A stretch of DNA of 44,665 bases from an uncultured Bacilli bacterium (GTDB taxonomy: Bacteria; Bacillota_I; Bacilli_A; RF39; UBA660), in the NCBI GenBank assembly GCA_947632375.1, contig CANRPF010000012.1, positions 1-44,665 on the forward strand, read 5' to 3'. The notes beneath the pieces were generated by a model that ran no database searches, was not told the origin of the DNA, and was given only the letters and a program-made list of their open reading frames with translations. Position 1 is the first letter of the stretch; each line of letters opens with the position of its first letter. Shown piece after piece: positions 22,041 to 44,549 of this stretch. The position numbers and the translations under genes are program-made.

Positions 22041-22071
22041 AAAAAAAGTTAAGACTTTACATCTTAACTTT
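22041..22071 (-). terminator. Terminator of the giant Ig-repeat protein gene
   Basis: Minus strand 10-bp stem (22062-22071 with 22045-22054), 7-base loop, then a run of T. It starts at the stop codon of the gene. Confidence 0.85.
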
Positions 22072-25000: not shown

Positions 25001-27433
25001 TATAGGTTCTGTTTTATCTATTTCAATAGTTACTTTTGTAGCATTACCTGCAACATCAGTAACAGTTACTGTATATTCACCATCTGTCATTGCAGAATAG
25101 TCATCTACAGTGTTTCCTTCTTTATCTGTTACTACTATAGTAGCCCCTTCTTCAGAAGTAATATCTTCTATATTATTATATAGTGATTTAGGTTCTTCAC
25201 CATTTATTTGTACTTCTGGTGCTTTTGTATCTACTACTATTACATTGTGTTTTAAAGTCCAATGATCAATATCACTAATAGCATTTCCAGCTTTATCTTT
25301 AATATTTTTTACTTTAATAGTATAAGTACCATCTGCAAATTTATCTTCACCTGTAAGAGTATAAACTATAGAACAAGCATATAAACCATCTTCATCAGTA
25401 TCACAAGTAACTTCTTCAAAAGTAAATACTTCTTTTTCTGTTGCTCTATCTACTAATACGAAAGTTGGGATTTCTGCTAATTCTTCATCGAATTTAATAG
25501 TAGAACGAATTCTTTGTTTTACTGTTACATAGCTAGTATCTCCAACAACTTTTCCACTTGTTCCAATACCGAAAGCTTTAATCTTTGGATCTTTTGCATC
25601 AACTGTAATAGTTTTTGTTTCTGTATTTCCAAATCTATCAGTAGCAGTAATAATATAAGTTCCATCAGTTAATTTAATTTCATCTGAAACTACCTTATTA
25701 GCAGTATAATTATTTTTAAATTCAAATGTAGTAACTTCTTCGCCTTTTTTAACTTCTACCTTCTTTAAGCTTCCATCACTTACTTGTAATGTAACGCCTT
25801 CTTTAGGATAAAGTTCTTTTAATTCTGCATTAGTTGCATCATAAATTTCTGGTTTTTTATTATCATGATATAAACTTAAATAATATACCATTCTACCATT
25901 ACTATCTTTATAATAAGCTTTGTTACCAGCTTTATCAACAGCAACTACATCATATTTAACATTATCTGCTTCTCCTTCTGGTAAAGTAAATTCAACCTTT
26001 TTTACACCATCAGTAGCAGTAATTGTTTTTGTTTCTTTAGTAAATGCATTTGTAACTGTCATATAATCTAAGTTATCGTCTTCTGCTATAATAGTAAATT
26101 CATCTATTATATATCCATTTCCAAAATTTAATTTTGGTGAATCAATATCATATATAACAGGTACTTCATTATATTCTGTTCCGTCTGAAGTTATTTCTTC
26201 TTCGTCTTCTTTAGGTTCATTTCCTAATAAATCTTCAATTCCAGATACTGTAACATTAATTTTATCTCCAGAACTTAAATTCATATCTTCTGTTATTTCA
26301 ATTTGTTTATAAGTATATCTATATCCTGTCTTTATTGTTTCGATTGTTGGTGTTACATCAATAATCTTGTTACCAATTTTTACAACAGGTGCATTCTTTA
26401 TTTCTTCATCAACTTGTACAGTTATCATTAACTTATCTTCTGCATTTGCATAAGGAACATCTTTTCCATGAACTTGTACTTTTATTCTTGTTACACTAGC
26501 AGGTTTTGTATCAATTACAATAGTAAATGTTACTTTATTAAATGCAGCATCAGTAACTGTAATTTCATAAGTTCCAACTTCTTCTGGTAACTTATATTCT
26601 TTAGCTTTTACTGTTGTTACACTGCCTTCTTCATCGCCAATTGTAACAATTTCAATAGTTACATCATTATCATCTGTAACTTTTAATGTTCCGCCTTTAG
26701 TTGTTAATGTTGCTCCTTCTTCTAAAGTATCACCGTCATCTACTTTAACTTCTGGTGCAACTTCATCATTTAATAATGGACTAACTTTATCTAATTCAGT
26801 TTGTAAACTTGATTTTAACTTTTCGTCAGTCAATTTACTTACTCTATCAGTAATATTATTTGTTGATTCATTAGTACGAGCGTTGTCCATATCTTCGACA
26901 CTTTGACTTGTTTCTACTTGATCTACTAGTGCTTTAACTAATGCTTGTAAATCTATACCTTCTTTTACGTTTGCTAATCTTTTTTGTAAATTTTCTTTAT
27001 CTTGTGTTGATGGTAATTTATCTACAGCTTCTTTTGCACTATCATAATCTCCATTTTTATATGATTCTTCTGCTTTTTTAACTAAAGCTTCAGCATCAGC
27101 TAGAGAATTATCTGATACAGGACTATCTGATGCAGGATCAAATATTTCTGGTTGTGAAGAAGATCCAGGATCTACTTCTGCATCATTATTAGTAGCAGTA
27201 TCATTATTTACATTTCCACTAGTTGTATTTCCATGTGTTGAATTTGATCCGTCATTATCATTATCATCTGATTCAACACGCTTTGTAGTTGTTGTAGTTT
27301 TTGTGGAATTACCACTGTTATTTTCTCCTCTTTTTTCAGAATAATCTTCACGTTGACTTGCAAAAGTGAATATCATCAATCCGATAAAGATAAATAGGAT
27401 AATAGCAATAAAATATTTTTTCTTGTTATCCAT
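22070..27433 (-). CDS. Giant membrane-anchored Ig-repeat surface protein
   Basis: 1787 residues. An N-terminal TM helix (about 7-26) without a clear cleavage site suggests a type II anchor. Then a Ser/Thr/Asn/Asp-rich linker (27-112), a helical region (113-222), and about ten Ig-like beta domains (about 223-1380), most closing with DKAGN or DRxGN motifs. From about 1384 a parallel beta-helix-like stretch begins at GDTVDISGATITEDVTIKAN and runs to about 1530. A further beta domain (FAGWEVYEDTYAG) and a Ser/Thr/Glu-rich tail follow. No LPXTG signal or C-terminal TM helix. The Ig domains follow a supra-repeat order. GGGAGGT precedes the ATG; own promoter and terminator. Probably an adhesin or wall-spanning stalk (inference). 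Confidence 0.9.
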   Translation of the reverse strand: MDNKKKYFIAIILFIFIGLMIFTFASQREDYSEKRGENNSGNSTKTTTTTKRVESDDNDNDGSNSTHGNTTSGNVNNDTATNNDAEVDPGSSSQPEIFDPASDSPVSDNSLADAEALVKKAEESYKNGDYDSAKEAVDKLPSTQDKENLQKRLANVKEGIDLQALVKALVDQVETSQSVEDMDNARTNESTNNITDRVSKLTDEKLKSSLQTELDKVSPLLNDEVAPEVKVDDGDTLEEGATLTTKGGTLKVTDDNDVTIEIVTIGDEEGSVTTVKAKEYKLPEEVGTYEITVTDAAFNKVTFTIVIDTKPASVTRIKVQVHGKDVPYANAEDKLMITVQVDEEIKNAPVVKIGNKIIDVTPTIETIKTGYRYTYKQIEITEDMNLSSGDKINVTVSGIEDLLGNEPKEDEEEITSDGTEYNEVPVIYDIDSPKLNFGNGYIIDEFTIIAEDDNLDYMTVTNAFTKETKTITATDGVKKVEFTLPEGEADNVKYDVVAVDKAGNKAYYKDSNGRMVYYLSLYHDNKKPEIYDATNAELKELYPKEGVTLQVSDGSLKKVEVKKGEEVTTFEFKNNYTANKVVSDEIKLTDGTYIITATDRFGNTETKTITVDAKDPKIKAFGIGTSGKVVGDTSYVTVKQRIRSTIKFDEELAEIPTFVLVDRATEKEVFTFEEVTCDTDEDGLYACSIVYTLTGEDKFADGTYTIKVKNIKDKAGNAISDIDHWTLKHNVIVVDTKAPEVQINGEEPKSLYNNIEDITSEEGATIVVTDKEGNTVDDYSAMTDGEYTVTVTDVAGNATKVTIEIDKTEPIITWSNGTNVGNGNIVNSQDESNSNYATSINVADKNNSHMTIYNSITKKTTTVEAKEDGTLTFDLASIEGIENSDNLKLYITAYDKAGNVKTRDGEAKGSAIEVYIDNKKPVIAAKGSLLNSDEAVVNGETYRGPVFVKITDGSLTKITATKNDVELGTEDVNPNYDPNKVMESNLTYEDEGTYKIVVVDRVGNVSTLEFTIDATPVKMTASTIWANVKEIVKDGKTYYYANEEKNILPYIVVDEELGENPVFTLKDSEGTELVIPDKYVTKTEENGTYKYGASYPVSEATTLKDGEISVKITNIKDKLGVEGVISSGEKLDYVDYGKLTNNNRIVVIDRDKPDISENSLRIVSSGNDKKDKIDGKTVYYANNRIRIYANFNEEIRNNPKFTISDNNNHEISGELKYNDNAGRYEADIYLNKEETKLEDGLVNLSVYGYEDSAGNEGEELTNADIKSSEGGVVVERTAPSLSIMIDGKETVLTPDNDKASIYIDKTAVGKAVEEHVPGTSIGVANKIVGDSSYTDRHQVNIFNRAQSYTKTITVYDELDNEHTYTIYVYPKTAESNKTEALKMVQPGDTVDISGATITEDVTIKANDVTIIGDAEEKIQGKLTIEGNNVTLKNVNATTDGIIALNITGDNATIENGEYKVSTNSYQGVGAIQIHDANEVHIHGVETTGGIQIWNFKGTTKESLDISGNTIKYTEPNAVIAGIVVGKDENLAVSYTARGLYEANNFEGISNSTDIDDRGKTNYFVTIQTADLVKDLDTVKVGVDGQPVYSDENASSQSKSEVASAYSVNYTSQAFPYMKEVSTEGSLIRKESANTITVSSQDDRYFNEYIKEKNFDKVSVIWWSKYSCDMTQCEGFTNRETNTKVESIFEGRRGDVDITMEAPAAREGFEFAGWEVYEDTYAGVAIQSVKALYKEVEATPASETETIPEADEVTSSEVSEIATSEIVEPVSNTLSIEMNKILARLSRF

Positions 27434-30161: not shown

Positions 30162-30671
30162 TTATAATTGTTTTCCTAAATAAATTACTTGATTATCATT
30201 TTTCTTACTACAAGTTATTAAATATATACTAGAAAAATTATTATATTTAACATTCATAAATCCATTACTTTCTATTTCATAAATATTTATAATTTTATAT
30301 TTATACCATTTATTATTATAATATACTTTAACAATATCATCTAAAGATAATAAATCTAATTTATTAAAATACGATATAACAGAATTACCACTATGAGATG
30401 CTACAATAAAATTACCATTATCTATATCAGGCATATCAGATCCATTTACTAATTCTATACCATAATCAACTGAATTATATTTATTTAAATATATTATTTT
30501 CTTTAAATTAATCTTAGGTATATCTAATACTATATTACTAATTTCATTATAATGATTATCTTTATTAAAAAACATCTCTACTTTATATTCTTCAATTTTT
30601 CTAAATATATTATTTCTAAATATCAAAATTAATAAAAGTATAATTAAAACAAACTTACTTAATCTTAACAT
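30162..30671 (-). CDS. Small sortase, partner of the thioester adhesin
   Basis: 169 residues: N-terminal TM helix (about 4-19) and a minimal sortase beta-barrel. IPKINLKKIIY and the NSVDYGIELV stretch are typical; catalytic His is H93 in VASHSG and catalytic Cys is C154 in YLITCS. The active-site Arg before the last strand is replaced by Gln (Q161 in NDNQVIYLG). The ATG lies inside the 3' end of the adhesin gene (17-base overlap) with no ribosome binding site, so translation is probably coupled to the adhesin. It probably anchors that adhesin through its IPKTK motif. Class uncertain, nearest to A/D types. Confidence 0.88.
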   Translation of the reverse strand: MLRLSKFVLIILLLILIFRNNIFRKIEEYKVEMFFNKDNHYNEISNIVLDIPKINLKKIIYLNKYNSVDYGIELVNGSDMPDIDNGNFIVASHSGNSVISYFNKLDLLSLDDIVKVYYNNKWYKYKIINIYEIESNGFMNVKYNNFSSIYLITCSKKNDNQVIYLGKQL

Positions 30672-33447
30672 ATATTATATTTAATAAAACAATAATAATT
30701 AAACTAATAATAACAATTTCATATTTAGAAATATTTAATTTTGTCTTTGGTATTTTTATTTCATTACTAGTATATATTTTATTATCTTCTATAACTATAT
30801 TAACTAAATTATTATTATCATTTATTTCAAAATAAAACTTATTAGGATTAATATCATAACCATCTGGACTAGATAATTCTTTTAAATAAAAATGTCCTGC
30901 AAATAAATCATTTACTTTAATATAACCATATTCATCTGTTAACCCACTATATACTAAATTATCATCTAATGTATATATACCAATTAAAGCATCTTTTAAA
31001 CCGATATTAGATAATGAATCAATTTTCTTTATAACTACTTGTCCTTTTCTCAAATGATTCATAATATTTATATCAACAGATACTTCTTTAGTATACTTAT
31101 CTTTATACTTTAACTCTATTTCATAAATATTATTATCTATAATATTATCTTTATTTGATTTAACTTCTTTTAATATATATTTTCCTAAAGGTAAAGAACT
31201 TACACTTGCTAAACCAAATGCATCAGTTTCTATAACTTTAACAATATCACCCTTTTTATATATAAGAATTTCATTTTCATATATATCTTCATTTGCAATC
31301 AAATTAAATACTACATTAGATAACTTAATATTATTATAAAAATACTTATTATCTTTAACAGATAAACTCTCTCCCATTTTTTCTATATTAATACGTCCCT
31401 TTACTCTATTATTAACATAATTTATCTCTATAATACGACCTAACTTACTATCATTAATAAAAGATGTATTTTCACCTATTTCAAACTCATAACCTAAATC
31501 ATTAATTAAATATCCTACATCAGTATCAGTTTCAATAATTTTATATTTAGAAGGATATAAAACTTCAGGAGTAATAAACTCTCCTAAATCATTAGTACTA
31601 TATTCACAAACAGATTCATTATTTGGATAATAAAGATTTTGACAAACATATTGTTTATTAATTTCATCATATATTTTAAACTTAAATTTATTTGATTTAA
31701 TTGGATTACCTAATTCATCAACCTTTTTTACAACTAACCTAGAAGTATATGGTTTATTAACTAAAGAAATATAAGTATATTCATTAGATAAAGAATTAAC
31801 TACTAAATCAATATCATCAGATAAATAATAATTCTTGATACCCTTAGTTTGTTTAATAACATAGTCTCCATAAACTAAATTAATAGTTGCTCTACCTGAG
31901 GCATCAATATGTAAAGTATCAACTAAAGAACCATCACTTTTTAAATATACTTTAAACTCTGCTCCAACTTCATTAAAAACTTTATCTTTATATTCATAAG
32001 TTTTATCAATAACTAAATTAGTATTATAAGCTTCATCATATAAAGTAACATCAACATACTTTCCATCATCTTCTTTTGTTATAGAAAAATTTTCAATTTT
32101 AGTATCTAACTTATAACCCTTAGGTGCTACTAACTCTTTTAAATAATAATTTCCAACTAATAAATCTAAATCACTCTTAGCATTACAATTACTATCAATA
32201 TTTAATTCTTTTATTAAATTATCTTTAGAATCATAAATACCATATAAAGCTCCCTTTAAAGAAGATGATCCTAAACTTTTACATGACTTAGTAAATAAAT
32301 CAAATTTATTTAAATTAACACCACCTAAATACATCTTACTATATATAGTTAAATCTTTAGAATTATTATCCATATCAAGATCAAAATAATATTTATTTTT
32401 ATCTTCCTCATAATTTAAACCAGGTTTATCTTGTTCAATATAATAGCTACCTAAATCTAAATCATCAACATTATAATTACATTCACTATCAATAACTAAA
32501 TCTTTAACAAAAGTTCCATCACTTTTATAAAGCTTATATATACTACCCTCTAATTTACCACCCTTTCTAGGTTCACAACTTCTATTATCCATATCATAAT
32601 TATGTAATTTTAAACTTCCACTAACTACACTATAAGATAAATTAATAAATATTCTATCTATATTTCCAGGTACAACTAAATTCTGACCACCAGAATTAAC
32701 ATAAACAACATATGGAGAACTCCATACTTCTTCACCCTTATTTATTCTTATATTTCCACCACTATTATTTTTAGGAATAATTTGAAAAGAATTATCATTT
32801 AATACATAATCACAATTATTACAATAATCTAAATGAAAATTTTTAAATCTACTATCAGTAAAAGTATAAGAACTTCTAATTGGTATAGATACATGAGTAT
32901 AATTAATTGGTGGAACACTTGTATAATCATTTACTAAGTTATTTATTTCATCCATCTTAGATTGTATTTCATCAGGTGTATCAATAACATTAGCGAAAGG
33001 ATGTTCTTTATCATTTTTACTTGTAAAATAATATTCTCTTCCTAAAGTATTCCAAATTAAAGCTTGAGTTGCAACAATCCATTCATCACCTATATGATTT
33101 TTGTAACCAGCTCCAAAAAAAGAAATCATAGAAATCTTATTTAATATATCATTACTTAATCCAGCATACTTAGCCATATCTGATAATGTAAGACTATAAT
33201 ATCCTTTATATGAATCAGCAGCTAAAGAAACTCTAGGTTCGATACAATATGCTGTTGCACCATCACTTTTTCTTTTAAAATGTTCAAAATCACCGTATTT
33301 ACCATCATAATCAACATAATGATATTTTCCTATAAAACTTTTAGTAAATTCATCATTTGTTATTAAAGCGAATATTTTATTTGGTTTTAAAAAAAATATT
33401 GAAAAAAACAAATTAATTATTATAAATAATTTAGTATATTTATTCAT
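30655..33447 (-). CDS. Thioester-domain adhesin with SpaA/CnaB-like repeats
   Basis: 930 residues with signal peptide (about 1-27). The N-terminal domain is a thioester adhesin domain: Cys68 in ATAYCIEPR and Gln128 in VATQALIW are placed to form the internal Cys-Gln thioester that binds host amines covalently in other Gram-positive adhesins. It is followed by about seven SpaA/CnaB-type domains, with repeated patterns such as LKGALYGIYDSKDNLI, GNYYLKELVAPKGY and AHFYLKELSSPDGY-like closings. The C-terminus has IPKTK (899-903) and a TM helix (911-927) with short Lys tail. AGGAGG precedes the ATG. The overlapping downstream gene is its sortase. Confidence 0.93.
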   Translation of the reverse strand: MNKYTKLFIIINLFFSIFFLKPNKIFALITNDEFTKSFIGKYHYVDYDGKYGDFEHFKRKSDGATAYCIEPRVSLAADSYKGYYSLTLSDMAKYAGLSNDILNKISMISFFGAGYKNHIGDEWIVATQALIWNTLGREYYFTSKNDKEHPFANVIDTPDEIQSKMDEINNLVNDYTSVPPINYTHVSIPIRSSYTFTDSRFKNFHLDYCNNCDYVLNDNSFQIIPKNNSGGNIRINKGEEVWSSPYVVYVNSGGQNLVVPGNIDRIFINLSYSVVSGSLKLHNYDMDNRSCEPRKGGKLEGSIYKLYKSDGTFVKDLVIDSECNYNVDDLDLGSYYIEQDKPGLNYEEDKNKYYFDLDMDNNSKDLTIYSKMYLGGVNLNKFDLFTKSCKSLGSSSLKGALYGIYDSKDNLIKELNIDSNCNAKSDLDLLVGNYYLKELVAPKGYKLDTKIENFSITKEDDGKYVDVTLYDEAYNTNLVIDKTYEYKDKVFNEVGAEFKVYLKSDGSLVDTLHIDASGRATINLVYGDYVIKQTKGIKNYYLSDDIDLVVNSLSNEYTYISLVNKPYTSRLVVKKVDELGNPIKSNKFKFKIYDEINKQYVCQNLYYPNNESVCEYSTNDLGEFITPEVLYPSKYKIIETDTDVGYLINDLGYEFEIGENTSFINDSKLGRIIEINYVNNRVKGRINIEKMGESLSVKDNKYFYNNIKLSNVVFNLIANEDIYENEILIYKKGDIVKVIETDAFGLASVSSLPLGKYILKEVKSNKDNIIDNNIYEIELKYKDKYTKEVSVDINIMNHLRKGQVVIKKIDSLSNIGLKDALIGIYTLDDNLVYSGLTDEYGYIKVNDLFAGHFYLKELSSPDGYDINPNKFYFEINDNNNLVNIVIEDNKIYTSNEIKIPKTKLNISKYEIVIISLIIIVLLNIIYVKIK

Positions 33448-33494: not shown

Positions 33495-34304
33495 TTATAA
33501 AAAGTAAATTAATGTTAATATTCCTACTATTATTAAATATATAGAAAATTTCCAAAGCTTACCATTACGTACAATATTGCTAAGTACTTTGTAAGTAAAA
33601 TATGTAACTATTCCTGAAAATACCATACCAACTAAATAATAACCTAACATACTGCTATTTATACCAACTTCAATTATATCTTTTACACCTAAAAGCATAG
33701 TTGCTATACTTACAGGAAAATATAACATAAACGTATACTTTAAAGAAGCATCTTTTGATAAAGAACATAAAAGACATGCTGCTAATACTGTACCACTTCT
33801 TGAAATTCCAGGTACTAATGCTACAGCTTCTAATAAACCGATAATAATTGCATCCTTATATGTTATATCATAGTCTTCTTTTTTACCTTTTGAATTTTTA
33901 ACAAAAAGTAAAAGTAATGCTGTTAATATAAATGCAATTCCAACTAAATAAACTCTATCAAATAGAAAACTTTCTAAATAATCTTTTAATACTATTCCTA
34001 ATATACCTACAGGTATAGTACCTATTATAATCATTAAACAATATTTAAAATCATTATAACTTTTCTTAGTTCTTTTAAATATATATTCAAAAAAACCTTT
34101 AATTAATTTAAACACATCTTTTCTAAATATAATAAATATTGCTATAAACGATGCAAAGTTTACAAATATTTCAAAATTAAAATCATTAAATATATCTACA
34201 GAAAACAAATGTCTAAATATATAAATATGTCCACTACTAGATATTGGTAAAGGTTCTGTTATACCTTGTATAATACCTAATATAATATATTTTAATAACG
34301 TCAT
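33495..34304 (-). CDS. uppP: Undecaprenyl-diphosphatase UppP (BacA)
   Basis: Dephosphorylates undecaprenyl pyrophosphate to recycle the lipid carrier of wall synthesis; overexpression of the family gives bacitracin resistance. 269 residues, about eight TM helices. Both active-site motifs are present: GIIQGITEPLPISSSGH near the N-terminus and LVPGISRSGTV in the middle. AGGGTGA precedes the ATG. It follows the second pseudo-kinase gene by 23 bases, so it may be in one transcript with the adenylase and pseudo-kinase genes. Confidence 0.96.
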   Translation of the reverse strand: MTLLKYIILGIIQGITEPLPISSSGHIYIFRHLFSVDIFNDFNFEIFVNFASFIAIFIIFRKDVFKLIKGFFEYIFKRTKKSYNDFKYCLMIIIGTIPVGILGIVLKDYLESFLFDRVYLVGIAFILTALLLLFVKNSKGKKEDYDITYKDAIIIGLLEAVALVPGISRSGTVLAACLLCSLSKDASLKYTFMLYFPVSIATMLLGVKDIIEVGINSSMLGYYLVGMVFSGIVTYFTYKVLSNIVRNGKLWKFSIYLIIVGILTLIYFL

Positions 34305-34327: not shown

Positions 34328-36130
34328 CTAATATATATTAATTATTATATTAATATCATCTTTTATATTTTCTTTTATAACATAATCTGTAAATCCATCT
34401 TCTATATAATGATCTACTATATTTTCTTTATTTTTATCTATTATTAATATCAATGGTATTTTATTATTTAACTTCTTTATTTCTTTCATTGTATTATATC
34501 CGTTTATTCCATTCATTTCATCTTCAATTATTATATAGTCATATATTTTCTTACTTTTTATTTTATCTATTCCATCTTGTCCATACAATATTATTGATGA
34601 TGATATATTTTCTTCTTGTAATTTCTTTTTAATTACATTATTTATTTCTTTATCTTGACTTATTATTAATACCCTTTTAGTTGGTATTTCACTTTCATAT
34701 TTATCTATTATAGATTCTTTACTAGCAGGATCATATATCTTTTGATCTATTGTTAGTATTATCTCTGTTCCTTTTCCTAGAGTTGATTTTATTAATAAAT
34801 TACCACCAGCAGCTTTTGCTATCTTCTGACATAATTTTATATTAAAATCACTTTTTTCTAAAGCTTCTACATCTTTTGAATCAAATTCACTCGTTGTACT
34901 TAATATCTCATTTATTTTATCTATTGATAATCCTGCTCCAGAATCTTTTATTGTGAAAATTAATCTACATACATCATATCTTTCTATCGTATCTATTTTA
35001 AATTCAATAAAACCTTCTTTTGTTTTTTTAACTGAATTTAATAATAAACTTAACAATACTTGTTTTAATTTAATATAATCTCCTTCTAAATATGGAATAT
35101 TGGCTTTTATTTGAGGTCTAAATTCTATATTATCTGGTATATCATTTTTTATTTTATTTATTATATCGTCATATACTGTTTTTAAATTATATTTATTTCT
35201 TATAAATTTAACTTTTTGCATATCTAAACTAGATACATCTAAAACATCATTTACAACAAAATCTAATTCACGAACAGAATTATTAATAAGTTTTAATTTA
35301 GATTTCATAGTATCTATATCATCAGTATCTTTTAAACTTTTACATAAATTATTTAAATTCATTAATGGACTTCTAACTTCTTGTGTCATTTCAAACAAAA
35401 AGTTAGATTTATCTACATATGTCTGTTCAACTAATTCTTTATTTTTATATATTTCACTTAACATTTTTATATCTGGATTTTCTATTGTATGATACATTAT
35501 AAATGCTATAAAAATTAAAGTAGGATTTATTAAATAATTTAATGAAGGATCCATTACTTGTAATGAAAAAATTGCTCCTCCTAAGAATATCAATAAATAT
35601 ATTGGTATGAATTTTTTATTTTTTAAATTTTTATAATTTATTACTAAACAAAATAATTGAATTAAAATTCCAATTCCACAAACTAAATATGTATACATTA
35701 TTGCATATCCAGTAGCTTCACTAGTTATATCATTCATTACTACTCTAACAGGTAAAATAATTATTAATATAATGCTTAAGTATTTGATAAACTTAAATAT
35801 TGAAATATATTTATTTATCTTATTTTTATTTTTTAATGCAACATAAACCGTATAAAAAGTAAAATAGTAAACCCAAAAGAATAAACTTAATAAATAACAT
35901 TTATTTGATATAGATATGATTAATTCATTAGCATATATTATATTGCTAACCAATAATCCTAATATTAATCCTGTTAATGATACAAATAAATTTGCAATTA
36001 GAAATTTAGAATAAGTAACGCCTTCTATTTGTTTAAGATGTTTTTTTTCAAAAAATATTATACATGTAGATACGATTAGAAGAAAAGCATATAAATTTAT
36101 TAGCAAAAATCCTTGGACATTTTGCATCAT
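34328..36130 (-). CDS. 7TM hybrid-kinase-like protein with no phosphoacceptor His (copy 2)
   Basis: 600 residues from ATG 36130 (AGAGG 5 bases upstream; a GTG at 36136 is too close). Seven TM helices (about 6-218), then ENPDIKM, a HisKA-like helical pair, an HATPase domain (about 345-460) and a receiver-like domain (about 480-600). The H-box reads FEMTQEVRSPL: Gln250 replaces the phosphorylated His while Glu and Pro-Leu remain. The ATP-binding N-box (LNSVKKT), G1 (DSGAG) and G2 (GKGTE) are present. The receiver has lost its acidic pocket (IISQDKE), and Glu536 replaces the phosphoacceptor Asp (IIIEDEMNG). A signalling phosphotransfer is thus improbable. Paired with the preceding ANL gene and paralogous to 38180-40000. 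Confidence 0.88.
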   Translation of the reverse strand: MMQNVQGFLLINLYAFLLIVSTCIIFFEKKHLKQIEGVTYSKFLIANLFVSLTGLILGLLVSNIIYANELIISISNKCYLLSLFFWVYYFTFYTVYVALKNKNKINKYISIFKFIKYLSIILIIILPVRVVMNDITSEATGYAIMYTYLVCGIGILIQLFCLVINYKNLKNKKFIPIYLLIFLGGAIFSLQVMDPSLNYLINPTLIFIAFIMYHTIENPDIKMLSEIYKNKELVEQTYVDKSNFLFEMTQEVRSPLMNLNNLCKSLKDTDDIDTMKSKLKLINNSVRELDFVVNDVLDVSSLDMQKVKFIRNKYNLKTVYDDIINKIKNDIPDNIEFRPQIKANIPYLEGDYIKLKQVLLSLLLNSVKKTKEGFIEFKIDTIERYDVCRLIFTIKDSGAGLSIDKINEILSTTSEFDSKDVEALEKSDFNIKLCQKIAKAAGGNLLIKSTLGKGTEIILTIDQKIYDPASKESIIDKYESEIPTKRVLIISQDKEINNVIKKKLQEENISSSIILYGQDGIDKIKSKKIYDYIIIEDEMNGINGYNTMKEIKKLNNKIPLILIIDKNKENIVDHYIEDGFTDYVIKENIKDDINIIINIY

Positions 36131-36140
36131 TACCACCTCT

Positions 36141-38144
36141 TTAATCTTTTTTCAATTTTAAACTCTTATTTTTATCTTTTGCATATGATATTTCAATTGA
36201 TCCTACACTTAAATTAGTTTCATCAACTAAAACATTTATTTCTGTATTGTCTAATGGTTCATTTTTTAATTTATTAAAATCCACTTTACTATTTTTAGTT
36301 AATGGCATATTTTCTCTAATTTTAAATTTAGATGGTATCTGTCTAGACGACATAGTTGGATTTTTAATTATATAATCATATACTATTTCATTAACTATAT
36401 TAATATAATCTATATTTTCTTCATTTTCTTTATTTAATGTAATATGGCATATAGGCATTATCCCTCTATAATTTTCATCGTAATATTCAACTACTCGTGC
36501 TTGTTTTACTAGTGGATGACTTTCTATTACTGATTCAATTTCATATGGTTTTATTTTATAACCATCGAAACGAGCAAAAGAACGATCTTTTCTTCCTAAA
36601 TGATAAAATATTCCATCCCTATCCATGGCCATTAAATCTCTTGTTCTAATATATGATTCACCATCTAATTCATAATGAGGTACAATAATATTATCATGTA
36701 AAACTCCAGGAGTTACAGAATTTCCAGATACTATAATTTCTCCTTCTAATTTGTCTTTTCCTTCTTCAAATTTTAATGGAACTAATTTATCATCAATATT
36801 AGGGTCAACAATACCTAATGTTAAACCAGGAATTGGTATTCCAATAGAACCATATTTATTATATTCATTTTTAGCATGAGTTCCACATCCTAAAAATTCA
36901 CTCATTCCATAACCTTTTCTAACTATTGCACTACTACCATGATCTTTTAACCATTTATTTAGATTCTCTTCATCTTTTTCTGACATAGAATCTCCACCAT
37001 AAGTCATCTTTTTAATACAAGATAAATCTAAATTTTGTAAATATTTATAATTTGGTAATTGAGCAAGCCAAGCAGGGGTTGCAATTATAATATTTGGTCT
37101 ATATTTTTTAATCAAATATCCAAATTCACTAATATCAAATTCTGGTACATCTATACTTACAGCACCACTAGATAAAGTCAATAAATAATTATCAAATGCT
37201 CCAAATGGTGCAAATAAAGGTAATATTCTTAAAACTCTATCTCCTGTATCAAAATTAACTCCAGCCATTTCCATTTGATTTAATTTAGATATTATATTTT
37301 TATTAGTTGCCGTAATAGGCTTTGGTCTTGCACCACTAGTACCAGATGTATGTCCTATATAATTTATTTCATCTTCTGTAGCAATAATTCTATATAAATT
37401 TTCATATTTCGCATTATTTTTTAAATCAGTATATTTATAAACTGGTATTAATGTATTTTTAGTTGCATTATTATAGGATTCTTCCATTTTTTTCATATTA
37501 TTAAGTTTATCTTGTAATGCTTTATACCATGATAATTTTTTTACATTAGTATTTACGTTTCTTATATTTTTTAAAGAATTATAATTAATTACATCTTTCA
37601 TATAATCAATTTTACCCTTTAAATTCATTGAATCACTTGCACTTATAGTAATAATACCTTTTATACCTAATTCTTTTAATTCTTGTTCTATAGGTTTTAT
37701 CATTCCTATATAACACATATCTAAAGCAACAATATAATTAGGTTTTTCAAATTTAATTATCTCTAATAATTTATTAGCATTGGCTTGCATATTAGTAGAA
37801 TCTGGTCTAGGATCTATAAAGTCACTTATTGCGCCTATTTGAGTTGCTCCAAACCAAATTTCACCACTTTCTTTTAAATTAGGTACTAAATTCAAAATTA
37901 AATCATTTCTTTTTATCCCAATACTTGATAATGCTTTTGCATTTGTATTATCAAAAAGCATTTCATCATAAGTAAATTCTTTACCATAATATGTTTCAGC
38001 GATTAAAGATCTTCTAAATTTATTTTTATCTTTTAAATACTCAACCATATGAAAATAATTGTCATCATCAAACTTTAAATCCTTATAATACTTCATCCAA
38101 GGTTTATCAATATGTGGATATCCTGTTAAATTCTCTTTTTCCAT
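36141..38144 (-). CDS. ANL-superfamily adenylating enzyme (acyl-CoA synthetase-like, copy 2)
   Basis: 667 residues from ATG 38144, chosen because GGAG lies 6 bases upstream; ATG 38156 is alternative. Activates a carboxylate as its adenylate. Motifs: A3 HTSGTSGARPKP (near 266, PKP replacing PKG), GYGMSEF (A5), RDLMAMDRDG (A7 with TGD changed to TRD), LGRKDRSFARFDGYKI (A8) and the catalytic Lys of A10 in LTKNSKVDF (near 620). The N-terminus TGYPHIDKPWMKYY is shared with the other copy. No carrier-protein, thioesterase or oxidoreductase domain is attached. Substrate unknown; a fatty acid is the default guess. The next gene begins 10 bases later. Confidence 0.88.
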   Translation of the reverse strand: MEKENLTGYPHIDKPWMKYYKDLKFDDDNYFHMVEYLKDKNKFRRSLIAETYYGKEFTYDEMLFDNTNAKALSSIGIKRNDLILNLVPNLKESGEIWFGATQIGAISDFIDPRPDSTNMQANANKLLEIIKFEKPNYIVALDMCYIGMIKPIEQELKELGIKGIITISASDSMNLKGKIDYMKDVINYNSLKNIRNVNTNVKKLSWYKALQDKLNNMKKMEESYNNATKNTLIPVYKYTDLKNNAKYENLYRIIATEDEINYIGHTSGTSGARPKPITATNKNIISKLNQMEMAGVNFDTGDRVLRILPLFAPFGAFDNYLLTLSSGAVSIDVPEFDISEFGYLIKKYRPNIIIATPAWLAQLPNYKYLQNLDLSCIKKMTYGGDSMSEKDEENLNKWLKDHGSSAIVRKGYGMSEFLGCGTHAKNEYNKYGSIGIPIPGLTLGIVDPNIDDKLVPLKFEEGKDKLEGEIIVSGNSVTPGVLHDNIIVPHYELDGESYIRTRDLMAMDRDGIFYHLGRKDRSFARFDGYKIKPYEIESVIESHPLVKQARVVEYYDENYRGIMPICHITLNKENEENIDYINIVNEIVYDYIIKNPTMSSRQIPSKFKIRENMPLTKNSKVDFNKLKNEPLDNTEINVLVDETNLSVGSIEISYAKDKNKSLKLKKD

Positions 38145-38179
38145 TTTTTTCTCCATTCTATTTATAACCCCAGTTTATT

Positions 38180-40000
38180 CTAATAACTACTCACAATTCT
38201 ATCTATTTCATCACTTAAATTGCTTACTAATATAATATCACTAAATCCATCTTCTAAGTAATTTTGTTTTATTTTTTCTTTATTTTTATCTAATGCAATA
38301 ATAACAGGTATATCAAAATTATCAATTTCTTTTAACTTAGTTAAAATAGTATAACCATTCATACCATTCATCTCATCATCTACTATAATATACTCATACT
38401 CTTTACCACGCTTAATTTTATCAATAGCATCTTGTCCATATAACATAAATGAATAGCTCATATTTTCTTTATTAAATTTCTTCTTTAAAGTTTCAACAAA
38501 AACTTTGTCTTGACTAACAACTAATACCTTTTTAGGTCTTGCAATAAAATTAGCATACTTATCCAATACACTTTCATTATCCATTGGATTATATATTCTT
38601 TGATCAACTGTAAGAATAGTTTCAGTACCATTACCAGGATTACTCTTAATCATTAAATGTCCACCTAATAATTTTATAACTTTTTGACATAACTCAATAT
38701 CCATCTCTAACTTATCCATATTAGAAATATCTTCTTGATTTAACGCTCCTGTTGCACTTAATATTTCATTTATAGTATCTATAGACATACCTTTACCAGA
38801 ATCTTGAATAATAATTATTAATCTACAAATATCATATTTTTCTATAGTATTTATTTTAAATTCAATAAAACCACTATCTGTTTTCTTTATTGAATTCATA
38901 ATTATAGATAAAATAACTTGTTTTAATTTTAAAGAATCTCCATAAAGATAAGTAACAGTATTAACTATCTCACTTCTAAAATCTATATTATCGGGTATTA
39001 AAGCATTAACTTTAGATACAATTTCTTTAAATAAATTTTGTAAATTATATCTATTAGTAATCTTCTTTAACTTTTGAATATCTAAAGAAGAAACATTTAA
39101 TATATCATTAACAGTAAAATCTAATTGTTTTATATTGCTGTTAATTAATTTTAAACCATCATGTATTTTATTAATATCATTTTCATTATTTAAAGAATCA
39201 CATATATTAACAATATTAAATAAAGGATTTCTAACTTCTTGAGTCATCTCAAACAAAAAGTTAGATTTATCTTCATAAGTCTGTTCAACTAATTCTTTAT
39301 TTCTATATAACTCATTAATTATTTTTAAATCTGGATTCTCAATAGTAAAATACATTATTATAGTTACAAAAGAAAATACAGAATTAATAATAGTTATACC
39401 AGGTTCTATCTGTCTTATAATAAAGACAAATACCATTAAAATTAATAATATAAATAAAGGAAAATACTTCTTATTCTTAACATGATTAATGTTAGCAAAT
39501 AAACTAATAATATCAATTAAAATACATACTCCACCAATTAATAAAGGAACATTTGTTGCAGGACCATAAGAATAAATATAATCCCCATAACTATAATATA
39601 TTGGTAAAATAAAAACTATTAAAGAAATAAAAACAAATAATATAAATATAAACAAAGAAATATATTTTTTCCTAGGAACAATGTATTTTTTAAAAAAAGT
39701 TCTACCATCAAAAGAAATATAAAAAATATATTGAGTAAATAAAAATTCCCAAGCTAATAAATATATTATAAAGCCCTTATTTACAAATTCATTAAGAAAA
39801 CTATAAAGAGGACCTACATCTTTAAACGTAATAAAGAAAAAACATAAAAGTTCAGTAATAAGACCTATAATAGATGCAACTAATAATTTAACATACAGTC
39901 TATTTTCTGCGCTTTTAATTTTACTTTTAGAAAAATATACAATTGCAACTAAAATAGTAAATATTAAAACACTAATTATTACAGATAAACTGATACTCAT
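38180..40000 (-). CDS. 7TM hybrid-kinase-like protein with no phosphoacceptor His (copy 1)
   Basis: 606 residues from ATG 40000; a GTG at 40009 would abut the AAAGGG site. Same architecture as 34328-36130: seven TM helices (about 2-225), ENPDLKI, HisKA-like helices, HATPase domain and receiver-like domain. The H-box reads FEMTQEVRNPL with Gln254 for His. ATP-binding boxes are present (MNSIKKT, DSGKGM, GNGTE). The receiver keeps an Asp at the phosphoacceptor position (D541 in IIVDDEMNG) but the acidic pocket reads VVSQDKV and is lost. Own extended -10 promoter at 40036. Paired with the upstream ANL gene; sequence similarity with copy 2 extends over the whole length. Confidence 0.88.
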   Translation of the reverse strand: MSISLSVIISVLIFTILVAIVYFSKSKIKSAENRLYVKLLVASIIGLITELLCFFFITFKDVGPLYSFLNEFVNKGFIIYLLAWEFLFTQYIFYISFDGRTFFKKYIVPRKKYISLFIFILFVFISLIVFILPIYYSYGDYIYSYGPATNVPLLIGGVCILIDIISLFANINHVKNKKYFPLFILLILMVFVFIIRQIEPGITIINSVFSFVTIIMYFTIENPDLKIINELYRNKELVEQTYEDKSNFLFEMTQEVRNPLFNIVNICDSLNNENDINKIHDGLKLINSNIKQLDFTVNDILNVSSLDIQKLKKITNRYNLQNLFKEIVSKVNALIPDNIDFRSEIVNTVTYLYGDSLKLKQVILSIIMNSIKKTDSGFIEFKINTIEKYDICRLIIIIQDSGKGMSIDTINEILSATGALNQEDISNMDKLEMDIELCQKVIKLLGGHLMIKSNPGNGTETILTVDQRIYNPMDNESVLDKYANFIARPKKVLVVSQDKVFVETLKKKFNKENMSYSFMLYGQDAIDKIKRGKEYEYIIVDDEMNGMNGYTILTKLKEIDNFDIPVIIALDKNKEKIKQNYLEDGFSDIILVSNLSDEIDRIVSSY

Positions 40001-40035
40001 AAATATCACACCCTTTAGATACTACTATGCGATTA

Positions 40036-40044
40036 TTATATCAT
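40036..40044 (-). promoter_or_regulatory. Extended -10 promoter before pseudo-kinase copy 1
   Basis: Minus strand TGATATAAT, the same 9-base element seen before prs and before the first ANL gene. It would start transcription near 40029, about 30 bases before the ATG. It sits inside the loop of a short CTATG/CATAG inverted repeat. Confidence 0.5.
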
Positions 40045-40070
40045 AGCAACAAAAAGAAAGAAAGGTGCTT

Positions 40071-42002
40071 TTAACTTAAGCTTAGCTTTCTTGTTCTTTC
40101 ATCAATAATAGCATTATCTCTTTTTTGAAGTTCAACAAAATCAATCTTACCAATACTTGTAAGTGGGAAAGATTCCTCAAATTGTAATTCAGTTGGTTGA
40201 GAATACTCTGCTAACTTATCAAGACAAATATTAGTAATTTCTTTTTCTATAGTGCTATAGTCATTATAACCTTCTTTTAAAATTATATGAGCTTTAGGAA
40301 GATTACCTTGAGAATGATTTACATCTTTTACTCCTACAACAATGCAGTTGCTAACAGCAGGATGTTGCATTATAGCCTCTTCTATCATATTAGGGAATAT
40401 TTTAAATCCATCATGTCTTATAATCATTCTCTTAATTCTATCAACAATATATAAGAAACCATTTTCATCCATGTAACCTAAATCACCTGAATGAACCCAT
40501 ACCTTGCCATCACTATGAGTTTTCAAAATCTTATCAGTTTCTTCTTGATTATTATAATATCCAACCATAGTATTTGGTCCTGTAATACAAACCTCACCTA
40601 ATTCATTATATTTAAGTTCTTTTTCTGTACCAGGTTCAAATATTGATATAGTAGTTTTTGGAAAAGGTATTCCAACACTACCAATAGCATTAGTTAAATT
40701 TGAAGTACAAGCCGCAACAGCAGCATTAACTTCAGTCATACCATATCCTTTAACAATCTTATAAGGACAATTATGTTTCTCTAAAAATTCATTAGTTTGC
40801 TTTTCAAGATTTTCATCCATCTTGTCTCCGCCAACTGTAGGAGCAATTATATAATCCAAATTTTCTTTAGCCATTTTTTCACTTTTAATAATACTTCCAT
40901 AATGACTAGGTACACCAACCATATGATTTGGTTTATATTCTAATAATAATTCATCAAACTTTTTAGGATCAAATTGAGGAATTAATATAACTTCCATTCC
41001 ACAAGTTAATGGTAAATGCAATCCATTACCAATTCCATATGCTATAAATGGAGGCATTATATTAAGCCAAGAATGACTACTTTGAAAATCATATCCAGCT
41101 ATTTCACATTGGAAAGATGCAGCATTTAAATTATCATTTGATAATACAACACCTTTAGGTCTCCCTGTTGTTCCACCTGTATGAACAATAACAACAGGTC
41201 TATCTTTTTCATACTCCTCTTCAGTAGGCATATAATAATTTTTACCCAATTTTATAAACTCTTTCCAAGTTAAACAATTACCACTTTTTGCAAACTTACT
41301 TTCACCATCTTTTAATTCTTTAAAATAACTTCTTGCAACAGTTAAAAAACTTACTTTATTTATTGAATCCTTATTCTTATCATTATATAAACCCTTTATA
41401 TCTTTAAAAGCTTTAGTTAACATATTTTTTAAAGATAAAGAATCTGTAGGTGAAATAACAACAATATCTTCTACATCAGTAGTCTTTTTAATATCTTTTA
41501 CCTTATCAGCGGCAACATCAATAATCATTAATAGCTTACTTCCAGCCTCTTTAGTATAATCCTCTATTCCCTCAACACTAGTTCTAGGATCAACCATATT
41601 CGCTATTGCACCAATTTTACTCAAAGCATAAAACACATATATAGTTTCAGGTATAGTAGGCATAATAACAGTAACAATATCTCCCTTATTAATACCATAT
41701 TGTTTTAAAGCTTGTGCAGTATCATCTATTTTATCAATAAGCTCTCTATAAGTTACCTTAGTTCCAAAATAATTTAAAGCAGTCTTCTCAATATTTCTAC
41801 CACTACGTGATTTAATAAAACTATAAATAGACTTATAAGGTAAACTTGCCATAATAGCATCATCTGTATAATATTTTAACCAAGGCTTATCCTTACTAGG
41901 ATACCCTGTTTTTTCACTTTTTACTTCCCCCATATTAACTCTTTTTAAATATAAATCAACAATTTCATCAGGCATATTAGCAATATTTTTATCTTTTTCC
42001 AT
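40071..42002 (-). CDS. ANL-superfamily adenylating enzyme (acyl-CoA synthetase-like, copy 1)
   Basis: 643 residues from ATG 42002, which has AGGAGA 5 bases upstream. The frame stays open to 42113 and would add a hydrophobic segment, but this overlaps a terminator-like hairpin and is unlikely to be translated. ANL motifs: A3 HTGGTTGRPKG (near 276), GYGMTEV (A5), SGDLGYMDENG (A7), VDRIKRMIIRHDGFKI (A8) and the A10 catalytic Lys in LTSIGKIDF (near 621). The core is canonical, so an acyl-CoA synthetase or acyl-adenylate ligase activity is likely; the acyl substrate is unknown. Shares the N-terminal TGYPxxDKPWxKYY block with copy 2. Confidence 0.9.
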   Translation of the reverse strand: MEKDKNIANMPDEIVDLYLKRVNMGEVKSEKTGYPSKDKPWLKYYTDDAIMASLPYKSIYSFIKSRSGRNIEKTALNYFGTKVTYRELIDKIDDTAQALKQYGINKGDIVTVIMPTIPETIYVFYALSKIGAIANMVDPRTSVEGIEDYTKEAGSKLLMIIDVAADKVKDIKKTTDVEDIVVISPTDSLSLKNMLTKAFKDIKGLYNDKNKDSINKVSFLTVARSYFKELKDGESKFAKSGNCLTWKEFIKLGKNYYMPTEEEYEKDRPVVIVHTGGTTGRPKGVVLSNDNLNAASFQCEIAGYDFQSSHSWLNIMPPFIAYGIGNGLHLPLTCGMEVILIPQFDPKKFDELLLEYKPNHMVGVPSHYGSIIKSEKMAKENLDYIIAPTVGGDKMDENLEKQTNEFLEKHNCPYKIVKGYGMTEVNAAVAACTSNLTNAIGSVGIPFPKTTISIFEPGTEKELKYNELGEVCITGPNTMVGYYNNQEETDKILKTHSDGKVWVHSGDLGYMDENGFLYIVDRIKRMIIRHDGFKIFPNMIEEAIMQHPAVSNCIVVGVKDVNHSQGNLPKAHIILKEGYNDYSTIEKEITNICLDKLAEYSQPTELQFEESFPLTSIGKIDFVELQKRDNAIIDERTRKLSLS

Positions 42003-42109: not shown

Positions 42110-42216
42110 GCACAAGAAGAGAAATATAGTTATTATCTGCTTTTTGAAAAAGTAATTGTCGACACTTATTAAAAGAAGATAAGTTATATAATTTTTTAAA
42201 AGTTTCTCTCTAGTGC
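42110..42216 (-). ncRNA. Candidate structured 5' leader of the ANL/pseudo-kinase operon
   Basis: Starting at the predicted transcription start, minus strand 42216-42203 (GCAC, then GAGAGAAA) can pair with 42124-42110 (TTTCTCTT, then GTGC), about 12 bp with an internal loop. It encloses two further hairpins: ACTTAT/ATAAGT (about 42183 to 42163) and CTTTTT/AAAAAG (about 42152 to 42140). The loop region TTATCTT of the first is complementary to AAGATAA of the terminator proximal arm, which gives an antiterminator. It matches no riboswitch class I know. A+T-rich DNA forms chance stems easily, so this is tentative. The rest of 42252-42300 shows nothing clear. Confidence 0.35.
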
Positions 42217-42350: not shown

Positions 42351-44549
42351 ATGAATACTAATAAAAAAGATGTAAATGACTATTTTAAATATTTACGTAT
42401 ATATTATAGAGAACTTGCTTTAAAAAGAAAAAAAGAATTAGAAGAAAAGAAAAAAAAGCAACAAGAAATAGATAGAATTAGAAAAAAACATGAAATAGAA
42501 TTTATAAATTTAAAAAAAGAACAAGAACTTAATATTAAAAAGAAAAGAAAAAAAGTTAAAAAAGTTGTAAAACTTAAACTAAAGAAAAAAAATATTAATC
42601 CAACTAAAAAAGTTGATATAGCAAAAAAACCAGAAGAATTAAAAAAGCCTATAAAAGTTGCAGTAAATACTTTAAATAAAGAAACAAAAAATATAAAAAA
42701 AGAAGAAGCTAAAAAGGACGTTAAAAAAGAAACTAAAAAGGAAATAAAACCTGAAGTAAAACATGATGTTAAAAAAGAAGTTGTAAAAAAAGAAGAAAAC
42801 CCAAAAGAAATTAAAAAGGAAACAACAAAAAAAGAAGTTAAACCAATTAAAGAAGAAGTAAAAAAAGAAAATGTTAAGAAAAAAGAGCCTGATAAAAAAG
42901 AAGTAAAAGTAACACCTAAAGTTGCCGTTATAGAACCAAAGAAAGAAGCCCCTACTATTAAAAATACGGAAACAAAAAAAGAAGTAAAAAAAGAAACTAA
43001 AAAGGAAAATAATAATTCTAAAAAAAAGGTAGTCGTTAGCAAAAAATTAAAAGTTAAAGATAATAAAAAACAAGAAACTAAAGATACTAAAAATATTGAT
43101 AATAAGAAAAAAGTTGCTAATGTTAATGAAGTAAAAAAGGAATCTATATTAGAAGCTAAGAAGCTAGAAGAAAAGAAACTAGAAGAAAAAAAGATTGAGG
43201 AAAAAAAGGCAGAAGAAAAAAAGATTGAGGAAAAGAAACCTAAAGTTGTAGCAGTTAATTCAAAAGAAAAAGTTGCTCCAAAGAAAAAAGAAGTTAATGA
43301 AAAATCAGAAGAAGAAAAAGATAAAGAAGAAAATTTAAAATTAGGCAAAAAAGAATTTATAGATACTTTAAATAAAGCTCTTAAAGATGATAAAGATCAA
43401 TTAAGAGAATTAGATTTAGAAAATTATAGAATTAGAAAAGAATTAGATAATACAAAAGATTTAAATGATATTAATAAATTATTAGCTAGACTAAAAAAGA
43501 ATCAAGATATTGAAAATACAATATTATCTAGAATAAATAAAATAAAAGATGGTTCTATTATTTTAGATGTTTATGATTTATCTAAAAAACAACCTAAATA
43601 TTTAAAAGATTATATTGAAATGTTAAAAACTGATAAAAATGATATTTATTTTAAAGAATTATATGAAAACTTTAAATATGATTTAAATCATAAAGATACT
43701 ATAACACATATAATTAATGAAACTAATGCAGTAAAAAAAGAAATTGAATCTAAACAAACTCTAGTTAATGATAAGGGAGAAAAAATAGATTATGATAATA
43801 ATTTATTAGAAAATTATAAAAATAAAAAACTAAAATTAGAAAGTGCTATTTTAAAATTCCAAATATCATTAAATGATTTAGAAAATAAAGTAAAAAATAT
43901 TAGTGCTACAGAAAAATTAGAAAAAAGATACTTTTTAGGTAATAAAGAAATAAAAAACAAATTAGAATTAAATGCTATTGCACTTAAATTATTTCATTCT
44001 AAAGATAATAATTTAAGTCATTTAGAAATATATAATAAATTAAAAAATAGTTTAAGAACTGAACTAACTTCAAGAATAGTATCTAATGCTACATATAAAG
44101 ATGTATTATTAAAAGAAAAAGAAAACTTATTTAAAACTAAAAAAGACTTAGTTAGTACATTAGATGATGTAAGAAAATTAAAACAAGATTTTATATTTGA
44201 ATTTAAAGATTATCTAAGTACTAGTGAATATTATAACTTTATAAGTGATATTGAACTATTAGAAGATAAACTATCTAGTCAAAAACAAAAAATATCAATA
44301 CTAGATAAAAAAGTAGATATAACAATGTTAGAACATGATAAAAAAGTAACAGAAATAGAAAAAATGAATGAAACTAAAGATAAAAATAATAACTTAAATA
44401 ACAATCAAAATAAAAATAATAATCAAAATATAAATAATACTCAACATAATAAACAACAAATGCCTTATCAAAATAATCCAAATATAATAGAATATCCATT
44501 TTATGATTATTATGAACCAGAAGAAAAAACAAGAGGAAGATCTAGATAA
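42351..44549 (+). CDS. Lys/Glu-rich coiled-coil protein of unknown function
   Basis: 732 residues, no signal peptide or TM helix. Residues 1-90 are a basic helical segment (KRKKELEEKKKKQQEIDRI). Residues 90-330 consist of degenerate KKE/KKEVKKE repeats with Pro and Val, ending in a block of repeated LEEKK and IEEKK units (about 265-300), much like the TolA or TonB linker. Residues 330-690 are long coiled coils with normal composition, and the tail is Asn/Gln-rich, ending NIIEYPFYDYYEPEEKTRGRSR. It may be a cytoplasmic structural or nucleic-acid-binding filament protein; I do not recognise a family. AGGTGA and a strong promoter precede it. Confidence 0.85.
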   Translation: MNTNKKDVNDYFKYLRIYYRELALKRKKELEEKKKKQQEIDRIRKKHEIEFINLKKEQELNIKKKRKKVKKVVKLKLKKKNINPTKKVDIAKKPEELKKPIKVAVNTLNKETKNIKKEEAKKDVKKETKKEIKPEVKHDVKKEVVKKEENPKEIKKETTKKEVKPIKEEVKKENVKKKEPDKKEVKVTPKVAVIEPKKEAPTIKNTETKKEVKKETKKENNNSKKKVVVSKKLKVKDNKKQETKDTKNIDNKKKVANVNEVKKESILEAKKLEEKKLEEKKIEEKKAEEKKIEEKKPKVVAVNSKEKVAPKKKEVNEKSEEEKDKEENLKLGKKEFIDTLNKALKDDKDQLRELDLENYRIRKELDNTKDLNDINKLLARLKKNQDIENTILSRINKIKDGSIILDVYDLSKKQPKYLKDYIEMLKTDKNDIYFKELYENFKYDLNHKDTITHIINETNAVKKEIESKQTLVNDKGEKIDYDNNLLENYKNKKLKLESAILKFQISLNDLENKVKNISATEKLEKRYFLGNKEIKNKLELNAIALKLFHSKDNNLSHLEIYNKLKNSLRTELTSRIVSNATYKDVLLKEKENLFKTKKDLVSTLDDVRKLKQDFIFEFKDYLSTSEYYNFISDIELLEDKLSSQKQKISILDKKVDITMLEHDKKVTEIEKMNETKDKNNNLNNNQNKNNNQNINNTQHNKQQMPYQNNPNIIEYPFYDYYEPEEKTRGRSR

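Follow-up and report, generated by a model that had tools for sequence, protein, structure and literature searches.

In the ComQXPA system of Bacillus, the N-terminal domain of the receptor is highly variable and its cytoplasmic domain conserved, and strains fall into pherotypes (PMC4008528). In the Rpf system of Xanthomonadales, which uses the diffusible signal factor (DSF), variants of RpfF and RpfC are fully associated and recombination breakpoints have been predicted within the cluster (PMC4517397), and RpfC has a phosphorelay-independent function, controlling RpfF by direct contact (PMC4504480). For CqsA/CqsS of Vibrio and LqsA/LqsS of Legionella, the specificities of production and detection are matched (PMC3285556). 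Here we analyse a stretch of 44,665 nt from an uncultured Bacilli bacterium (contig CANRPF010000012.1; the whole stretch is referred to as the window), which carries two adjacent gene pairs, each an adenylating enzyme of the ANL type followed by a histidine kinase-like protein (HK) with a seven-transmembrane (7TM) head. In the relatives of this locus, the enzyme gene and the 7TM part of the gene that follows are inherited together and pass as one piece, within a genus and between genera, to HisKA-HATPase-REC cores already in place.

The locus resembles ComQXPA in having putative signal-making genes directly upstream of a multi-transmembrane receptor kinase and in joining a variable receptor to a conserved kinase; ComQXPA differs in its peptide pheromone and isoprenyl transferase, its non-hybrid receptor kinase and the absence of a dead-kinase branch. 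A peptide pheromone system of the ComQXPA or agr type was rejected, as the gaps of 4 and 61 nt between enzyme and HK are too small for a gene. Rpf/DSF is similar in having a fatty acyl-CoA ligase (RpfB) and a multi-transmembrane hybrid kinase (RpfC) in one cluster, but the seven-transmembrane receptor of our locus with its ENPD motif is a different one, a PlsC-like acyltransferase (LPLAT) is possible as partner and exchange is far more extensive. No match to PF00378, the RpfF-type crotonase, was obtained in 23 searched genomes of the family, and a DSF system proper was rejected since RpfF was not found. CqsA/CqsS and LqsA/LqsS set an acyl-using synthase beside a multi-transmembrane sensor kinase, but there the kinases are active. 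Their synthases are of the aminotransferase type and not ANL or LPLAT, and we know of no cassette exchange on kinase cores in these systems. In the pseudo-histidine kinases DivL and RcsD the His of a HisKA-like domain is replaced, and they signal by contact and not by phosphorylation; unlike these, a whole clade has here lost the G2 box, receiver residues and the HPt partner, and is tied to an exchangeable enzyme-7TM head. Aas unites an acyl-ACP synthetase (ANL) and a PlsC-like acyltransferase in one system, whereas here these are separate genes, usually with one enzyme only, tied to a receptor kinase. In a literature search, the pairing of ANL or LPLAT with a 7TM kinase was not found described.

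Enzyme and receptor-kinase pairs in the window and in the family

The minus-strand order is ANL2, HK2, ANL1, HK1 and uppP, all co-directional and separated by 61, 23, 4 and 23 nt, respectively:

40071..42002, minus strand: ANL2, AMP-binding enzyme of cassette 2 (Pfam PF00501 8e-68, PF13193 3e-13), catalytic residues kept
38180..40000, minus strand: HK2, 7TM-HisKA-HATPase-REC protein without phosphoacceptor His (Q254 from M4)
39341..40000, minus strand: 7TM receptor domain of HK2, with seven helices and an extracellular hairpin in the AlphaFold2 model (pLDDT 90.7)
39329..39340, minus strand: ENPD motif of HK2, the junction of 7TM head and kinase core and a breakpoint in relatives
39239..39241, minus strand: Gln codon at the H-box position of HK2
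36141..38156, minus strand: ANL1, AMP-binding enzyme of cassette 1 (Pfam PF00501 4e-34)
34328..36130, minus strand: HK1, 7TM-HisKA-HATPase-REC protein without phosphoacceptor His (Q250 from M3), receiver Asp replaced by Glu
35471..35482, minus strand: ENPD motif of HK1, where the DNA of genomes G002 and G004 turns from unrelated to 97% identical
35381..35383, minus strand: Gln codon at the H-box position of HK1
39329..42002, minus strand: exchangeable cassette 2 (ANL2 and the 7TM of HK2)
35471..38156, minus strand: exchangeable cassette 1 (ANL1 and the 7TM of HK1)
33495..34304, minus strand: uppP, last gene of the order, 3' of HK1

Coordinates and Pfam matches thus agree with a reading made earlier from the sequence alone, which had described two adjacent pairs of ANL and kinase-like genes on one strand. 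The open reading frame of ANL2 opens at 42113, and the ATG at 42002 is preceded by a ribosome-binding-like AGGAG. HisKA, HATPase_c and Response_reg follow one another in this order in both HKs, with the HisKA of HK2 slightly below the Pfam cut-off. ANL1 and ANL2 are the only ANL genes found in the genome of the window (G000), a bin that is 95.8% complete with 9% contamination and measures 2.07 Mb versus 1.0-1.4 Mb in congeners, so that statements of presence or absence on this genome alone are weak.

The relatives belong to a family of small-genome bacteria represented by drafts only, which probably falls in the class Bacilli, to judge from in-frame TGA codons in relatives from the class, and may be the RF39 group; about 140 of its neighbourhoods with 147 HKs were compared. 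HK relatives occur in 221 of the 291 sampled genomes and in 122 of the 150 genera of the family; a scan of genome contigs with the HK2 protein gave only distant kinases from other phyla. At 124 of the 144 loci where it could be read, the gene directly upstream of the HK encodes an ANL (88) or an LPLAT (36), the latter identity being confirmed by Pfam PF01553. The proposed conservation of the pairs therefore holds, and the enzyme partner can be a PlsC-like acyltransferase too, beyond the ANL-only view held before. An ANL or LPLAT lies within 3.5 kb of 39 out of 48 HKs. Seen from the enzymes, 26/63 ANL and 16/41 LPLAT genes (30 genomes) adjoin an HK on the same strand, against about 0.6% expected by position; these counts include orthologues and are non-independent, and the associated probabilities are only indicative. 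ANL and LPLAT are both present at 11 of the 147 loci, as separate genes and not fused in one chain, and HAD domains are fused to some members of either type.

The enzymes are highly diverse and look catalytically intact. Over 97 ANLs, the A10 Lys and A8 Arg are kept in every sequence, the A5 Glu in 95 and the P-loop Lys in 93, and the catalytic Lys and Arg are kept whichever type of core, with or without the phosphoacceptor His, follows. In NCBIfam and the PDB it is fatty-acyl or coumaroyl ligases that match best, far below the curated cut-offs. Clustering of the 97 ANL loci at 50% identity yields 49 types, eight of which occur on both His and no-His cores.

Enzyme and 7TM domain are exchanged as a unit

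In its inheritance, the 7TM domain follows the enzyme encoded upstream, and not the kinase core of its own protein. In a nearest-neighbour test on 83 de-duplicated loci with an ANL, the nearest neighbour was the same by ANL and by 7TM at 42 loci (10,000 permutations: mean 1, maximum 8), whereas it was the same by core and 7TM at four and by ANL and core at seven. In partial Mantel tests, the ANL correlates with the 7TM at 0.33 once the core is accounted for, and with the core at 0.005 once the 7TM is; within the core, kinase part and receiver part correlate at 0.81. The LPLAT loci show the same pattern (14/34 versus 2/34 and 1/34; rank r 0.57 versus 0.06). What varies together is thus the receptor domain and the enzyme upstream, to the exclusion of the kinase core, as would be expected of a polymorphic synthase-receptor system. 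The suggestion that the kinase domain acts as a scaffold for the adenylating enzyme finds no echo in these data: covariation of core and enzyme is absent (rank r 0.03), while the 7TM does covary.

The trees give the same picture. The no-His clade of the core tree is broken in the ANL and 7TM trees (starred branches), and those two trees agree. Approximately unbiased (AU) tests of the no-His grouping on the ANL and 7TM trees gave p values of 1e-44 and 1e-31, on rows picked as informative, and we use them as supporting evidence only. Conflict between 7TM and core trees might reflect a long-branch problem, and identity-based, permutation and DNA breakpoint tests were therefore made. Pairs of loci with similar heads on dissimilar cores include L101 (Gly at the H-box) and L170 (His), with 58% identity in the ANL, 65% in the 7TM and 27% in the core, L111 and L083 (66%, 59% and 24%) and L130 and L172 (72%, 59% and 27%). 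Beyond the ANL on the upstream side and beyond the HK on the downstream side, 25 such swap pairs have no detectable DNA in common.

At single loci, the junctions of exchange lie where the enzyme gene begins and, behind TM7, at the ENPD motif, which is invariant or nearly so in alignments. Genomes G218 and G086, from one genus, are 99-100% identical in DNA from the ANL start to about HK residue 232 (ENPD is at 235), while the flanks outside this cassette are mostly 70-83% identical on both sides. The locus of the window itself lies between a divergent Lys/Glu-rich gene and uppP, where G002 carries cassette 1 of the window. At this same locus in G004, the first 90 nt of the ANL are 89% identical to those of G002 and the sequence is again shared from ENPD onward, with 97% identity at the junction, but between ANL nt 90 and ENPD there is no BLAST similarity. 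In G001, this position ahead of uppP is taken by an LPLAT head. Pairs within one genome repeat the pattern: identities of 7TM, kinase and receiver are 36%, 93% and 99% in G253, 29%, 92% and 94% in G099, and 24%, 92% and 92% in G018.

In G015 (C108 and C84) and G174 (C32, C15 and C22; L231-L237 together), contigs break off within shared sequence, at ENPD or shortly behind it, with 87 identical bases in G015, which is a sign of near-identical cores under different heads in one genome. Apparent stand-alone 7TM proteins in G174, G019 and G015 were rejected, as their contigs stop at the ENPD junction. Such cores could also lead an assembler to join the wrong heads, in which case the swaps would be chimeras; the contig ends in G015 and G174 fit this explanation, as do the draft state of the genomes and the 9% contamination of the bin of the window. 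We consider it very improbable as an account of the exchange, since the swapped heads are usually 50-75% identical and sit on cores that are 24-40% identical in different genera, and a mis-join cannot yield diverged copies. The link between enzyme and 7TM is moreover intact across all contig sizes.

These relationships also change the history of the window, which had been read as a duplicated module. With 32% identity between them, ANL1 and ANL2 are of independent origin, each with nearer kin in other genera. ANL1 is 94% identical to its counterpart in G002 and 84% to that of G230, a member of another genus whose core is 39% identical; ANL2 is 56-57% identical to the enzymes of G005 and G182 and to that of a His-type locus. 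The cassette 1 type is common to G002, G003, G230, G101, G277 and G219, and the cassette 2 type to G005, G182, G218 and G086 and the His-type loci of G168, G258 and G267. A recent tandem duplication of the whole module was rejected, as the two ANLs differ in type, as do the two 7TMs, and the core of HK1 has closer kin in G002 and G004 than in HK2. The two cores of the window are thus paralogous, and the two enzyme-7TM heads are unrelated types. The link drawn to uppP, the sortase and ftsI proved to be genus-local synteny, with different downstream neighbours elsewhere.

A clade of cores without the phosphoacceptor histidine

Most of the family has the core of an ordinary hybrid kinase, partnered by HPt or HPt-REC: nearly all catalytic residues are retained in the His-type proteins, and at many His-type loci an HPt domain is fused to the HK or an HPt or HPt-REC gene (the latter read from sequence) lies directly downstream. 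The cores of the window are degenerate. Their H-boxes read MTQEVRSP and MTQEVRNP, with Gln at Q250 and Q254 when HK1 starts at M3 and HK2 at M4, starts that are both preceded by ribosome-binding-like sequence. The sequence-only reading had noted this Gln, and it is not a chance substitution, as the H-box residue is His in 87 of the 147 HKs and another residue in 60 (Q 46, G 4, N 4, K 2, S 2, A 1, M 1), which form one clade in the core-only tree (SH-aLRT 100) and in a smaller full-length tree (99). Loss of the His before the two cores of the window diverged, as had been proposed, is borne out by this single clade (SH-aLRT 99-100). The claim of intact ATP boxes survives in part only: the N-box Asn and the G1 DxGxG are kept in both HKs, but the GxGxG loop of G2 is replaced by K/D/N in HK1 and K/E/D in HK2, leaving neither the His nor the G2 expected of an autokinase, and G2 is lost clade-wide. 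The DD pocket of the receiver has become SQ in both, and the phosphoacceptor Asp of the receiver is Glu in HK1.

Across the clade, the N-box Asn is present in 50 and the G1 Asp in 53 of the 60 proteins, the G2 glycines and the H+4 Thr are lost, the receiver Thr is left in 10 and the acidic pocket is often gone. Eleven genomes (G000 and ten others) have no-His proteins as their enzyme-linked HKs at the aligned loci, and not one of them has a match to the HPt profile PF01627, which is found in 12 others of the family. As exceptions, G008 has His-type HKs with no HPt match, G024 carries both types of HK, and G003, a congener of the window, has a His-type fragment on a 3.3-kb contig. The no-His cores are not decaying: dN/dS between orthologues is 0.04-0.28, which indicates purifying selection. 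For core pairs within a genome dN/dS is higher, with one value above 1 that rests on very few changes. In the genus of L047 (G011) and L114 (G287), other genes lie between the ANL and a no-His HK whose H-box residue is Gly; in G011 these include a gene for a 1286-aa repeat-rich protein.

That the no-His clade retains enzyme and 7TM though phosphotransfer is gone would fit a physical complex, in which direct binding lets the 7TM control the activity of the enzyme, or the enzyme that of the 7TM, so that the two have to match, with a ligand unrelated to the enzyme. RpfC, which directly controls the DSF synthase RpfF without phosphorelay, offers a precedent (PMC4504480). Set against this, covariation is seen in the 7TM, whereas a soluble enzyme would ordinarily be bound by the cytosolic domains, and the unrelated folds of ANL and LPLAT occupy the same place. 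We therefore regard such a complex as improbable.

Candidate ligands and the fold of the 7TM domain

Because the membrane domain covaries, the catalytic residues of the enzyme are kept everywhere and two unrelated folds interchange, we favour a link through a small molecule. On balance, we lean towards each pair being a cognate enzyme-receptor cassette for an acyl-type ligand, a kind of ligand that had been suggested before and that we find plausible. The enzyme would make, or finally process, an acyl- or carboxylate-derived ligand, and the 7TM, predicted to be GPCR-like, would recognise it. Selection for distinct specificities of enzyme, ligand and receptor might then keep the diversity, in the manner of pherotypes. 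His-type cores would respond by phosphorelay, and the no-His cores of the window may respond without phosphotransfer, via conformation-dependent protein contacts.

The 7TM of HK2 (39299-40009, model m66d70caeb609, at the pLDDT given above) is predicted to have a GPCR-like arrangement of helices. VIA-align superposes the model on LYCHOS with a Z score of 17.4, the best, and an rmsd of 3.5 over 217 aligned residues, and the VIA-align matches listed are GPCRs or proteins with GPCR-type domains; in Foldseek, the GPCR match has an E of only 0.02. Such a predicted arrangement fits a ligand pocket, without proving homology. Relatives of the 7TM outside the family are weak matches (E 1e-22 or worse); among the four that were read through, two to three kinds of non-kinase output occur, read from sequence as GGDEF, GGDEF/EAL-like and PAS-GGDEF-HD. 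At L218, L219 and L228 (genus g56, from another family of the class), a gene for a PlsC-like acyltransferase of 382-390 aa lies directly or one gene upstream of a 7TM-GGDEF gene, a link to a putative cyclic-di-GMP output which hints that the pairing of enzyme and 7TM may be older than the kinase.

Several points weigh against a cognate signal. The substrate of the enzyme cannot be deduced from sequence, and its product, the ligand and secretion are inferred only. The GPCR match is weak in Foldseek, with the E value of 0.02, and little can be read from the lack of other folds in that search. Nearly all of the family genomes searched are devoid of ketoacyl synthase, so that type II fatty acid synthesis (FASII) is almost entirely absent and acyl chains would need import. 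Co-inheritance would also result from a shared imported substrate or from direct contact of enzyme and 7TM, and nearly all data come from draft genomes resembling metagenome-assembled ones.

The shared-substrate alternative would have the 7TM sense an exogenous fatty acid, another carboxylate or a lysolipid that the ANL or LPLAT next to it would activate or incorporate, making the cassette a nutrient or membrane-repair module of matched specificity that makes no signal. It predicts co-inheritance equally well and draws on the near absence of FASII, which makes import of acyl chains a necessity, and on the joint presence of ANL and LPLAT at 11 loci. The two enzymes resemble the two halves of the lysophospholipid recycling enzyme Aas. 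What speaks against it is the wealth of 49 types among 97 ANL loci, and that 7TM alleles of 21-32% identity replace each other within a genus, in G002 and G004 at one locus, a turnover of heads that is commoner in self-recognition than in nutrient use. We judge this alternative unlikely, though it deserves serious attention. It is this turnover of allelic heads within a genus, as in pherotypes, that leads us to prefer product over substrate as the ligand of the cognate cassettes.

More tentatively, and with somewhat less conviction than we attach to the cassettes themselves, the whole could be a family-wide, pherotype-like system of acyl communication or self-recognition, with dozens of exchangeable enzyme/GPCR-like heads, enzymes of two unrelated classes (ANL and LPLAT) and a no-His clade that would go on signalling after the loss of phosphotransfer from kinase core, receiver and HPt. 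If so, a chemical language would be spoken in a very large uncultured family (221/291 sampled genomes), the synthesising enzyme and the receptor of each dialect could be read from sequence, and ligand discovery would become directly testable, as each enzyme would predict its receptor. Evolution already swaps heads onto kinase cores at ENPD, and the no-His clade offers a natural experiment in which receptor kinase signalling would have been kept after phosphotransfer was lost.

Away from the HKs, an ANL of about 580 aa flanked by two small PlsC-like proteins of about 200 aa forms a recurrent cluster (G002:C2:11922-14594, G016:C13:29360-32061, G004:C40, G012:C16 and G023:C11), in bacteria without FASII possibly an exogenous fatty acid pathway. 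Within the window, Rfam and tRNA scans gave no match, and a scan for promoters and terminators gave no excess over shuffles. The Lys/Glu-rich gene that is divergent from the ANL-HK operon (42351-44549) encodes a 732-aa protein with no Pfam match, and partly similar genes lie near the same locus in G001, G002, G003 and G004. An open reading frame of 1787 aa (22070-27433) has no Pfam match at E 1e-4. At 30162-33447, a single sortase adjoins a protein of 930 aa, likely an anchored adhesin, in which six SpaA-type stretches are combined with a thioester (TED) domain.

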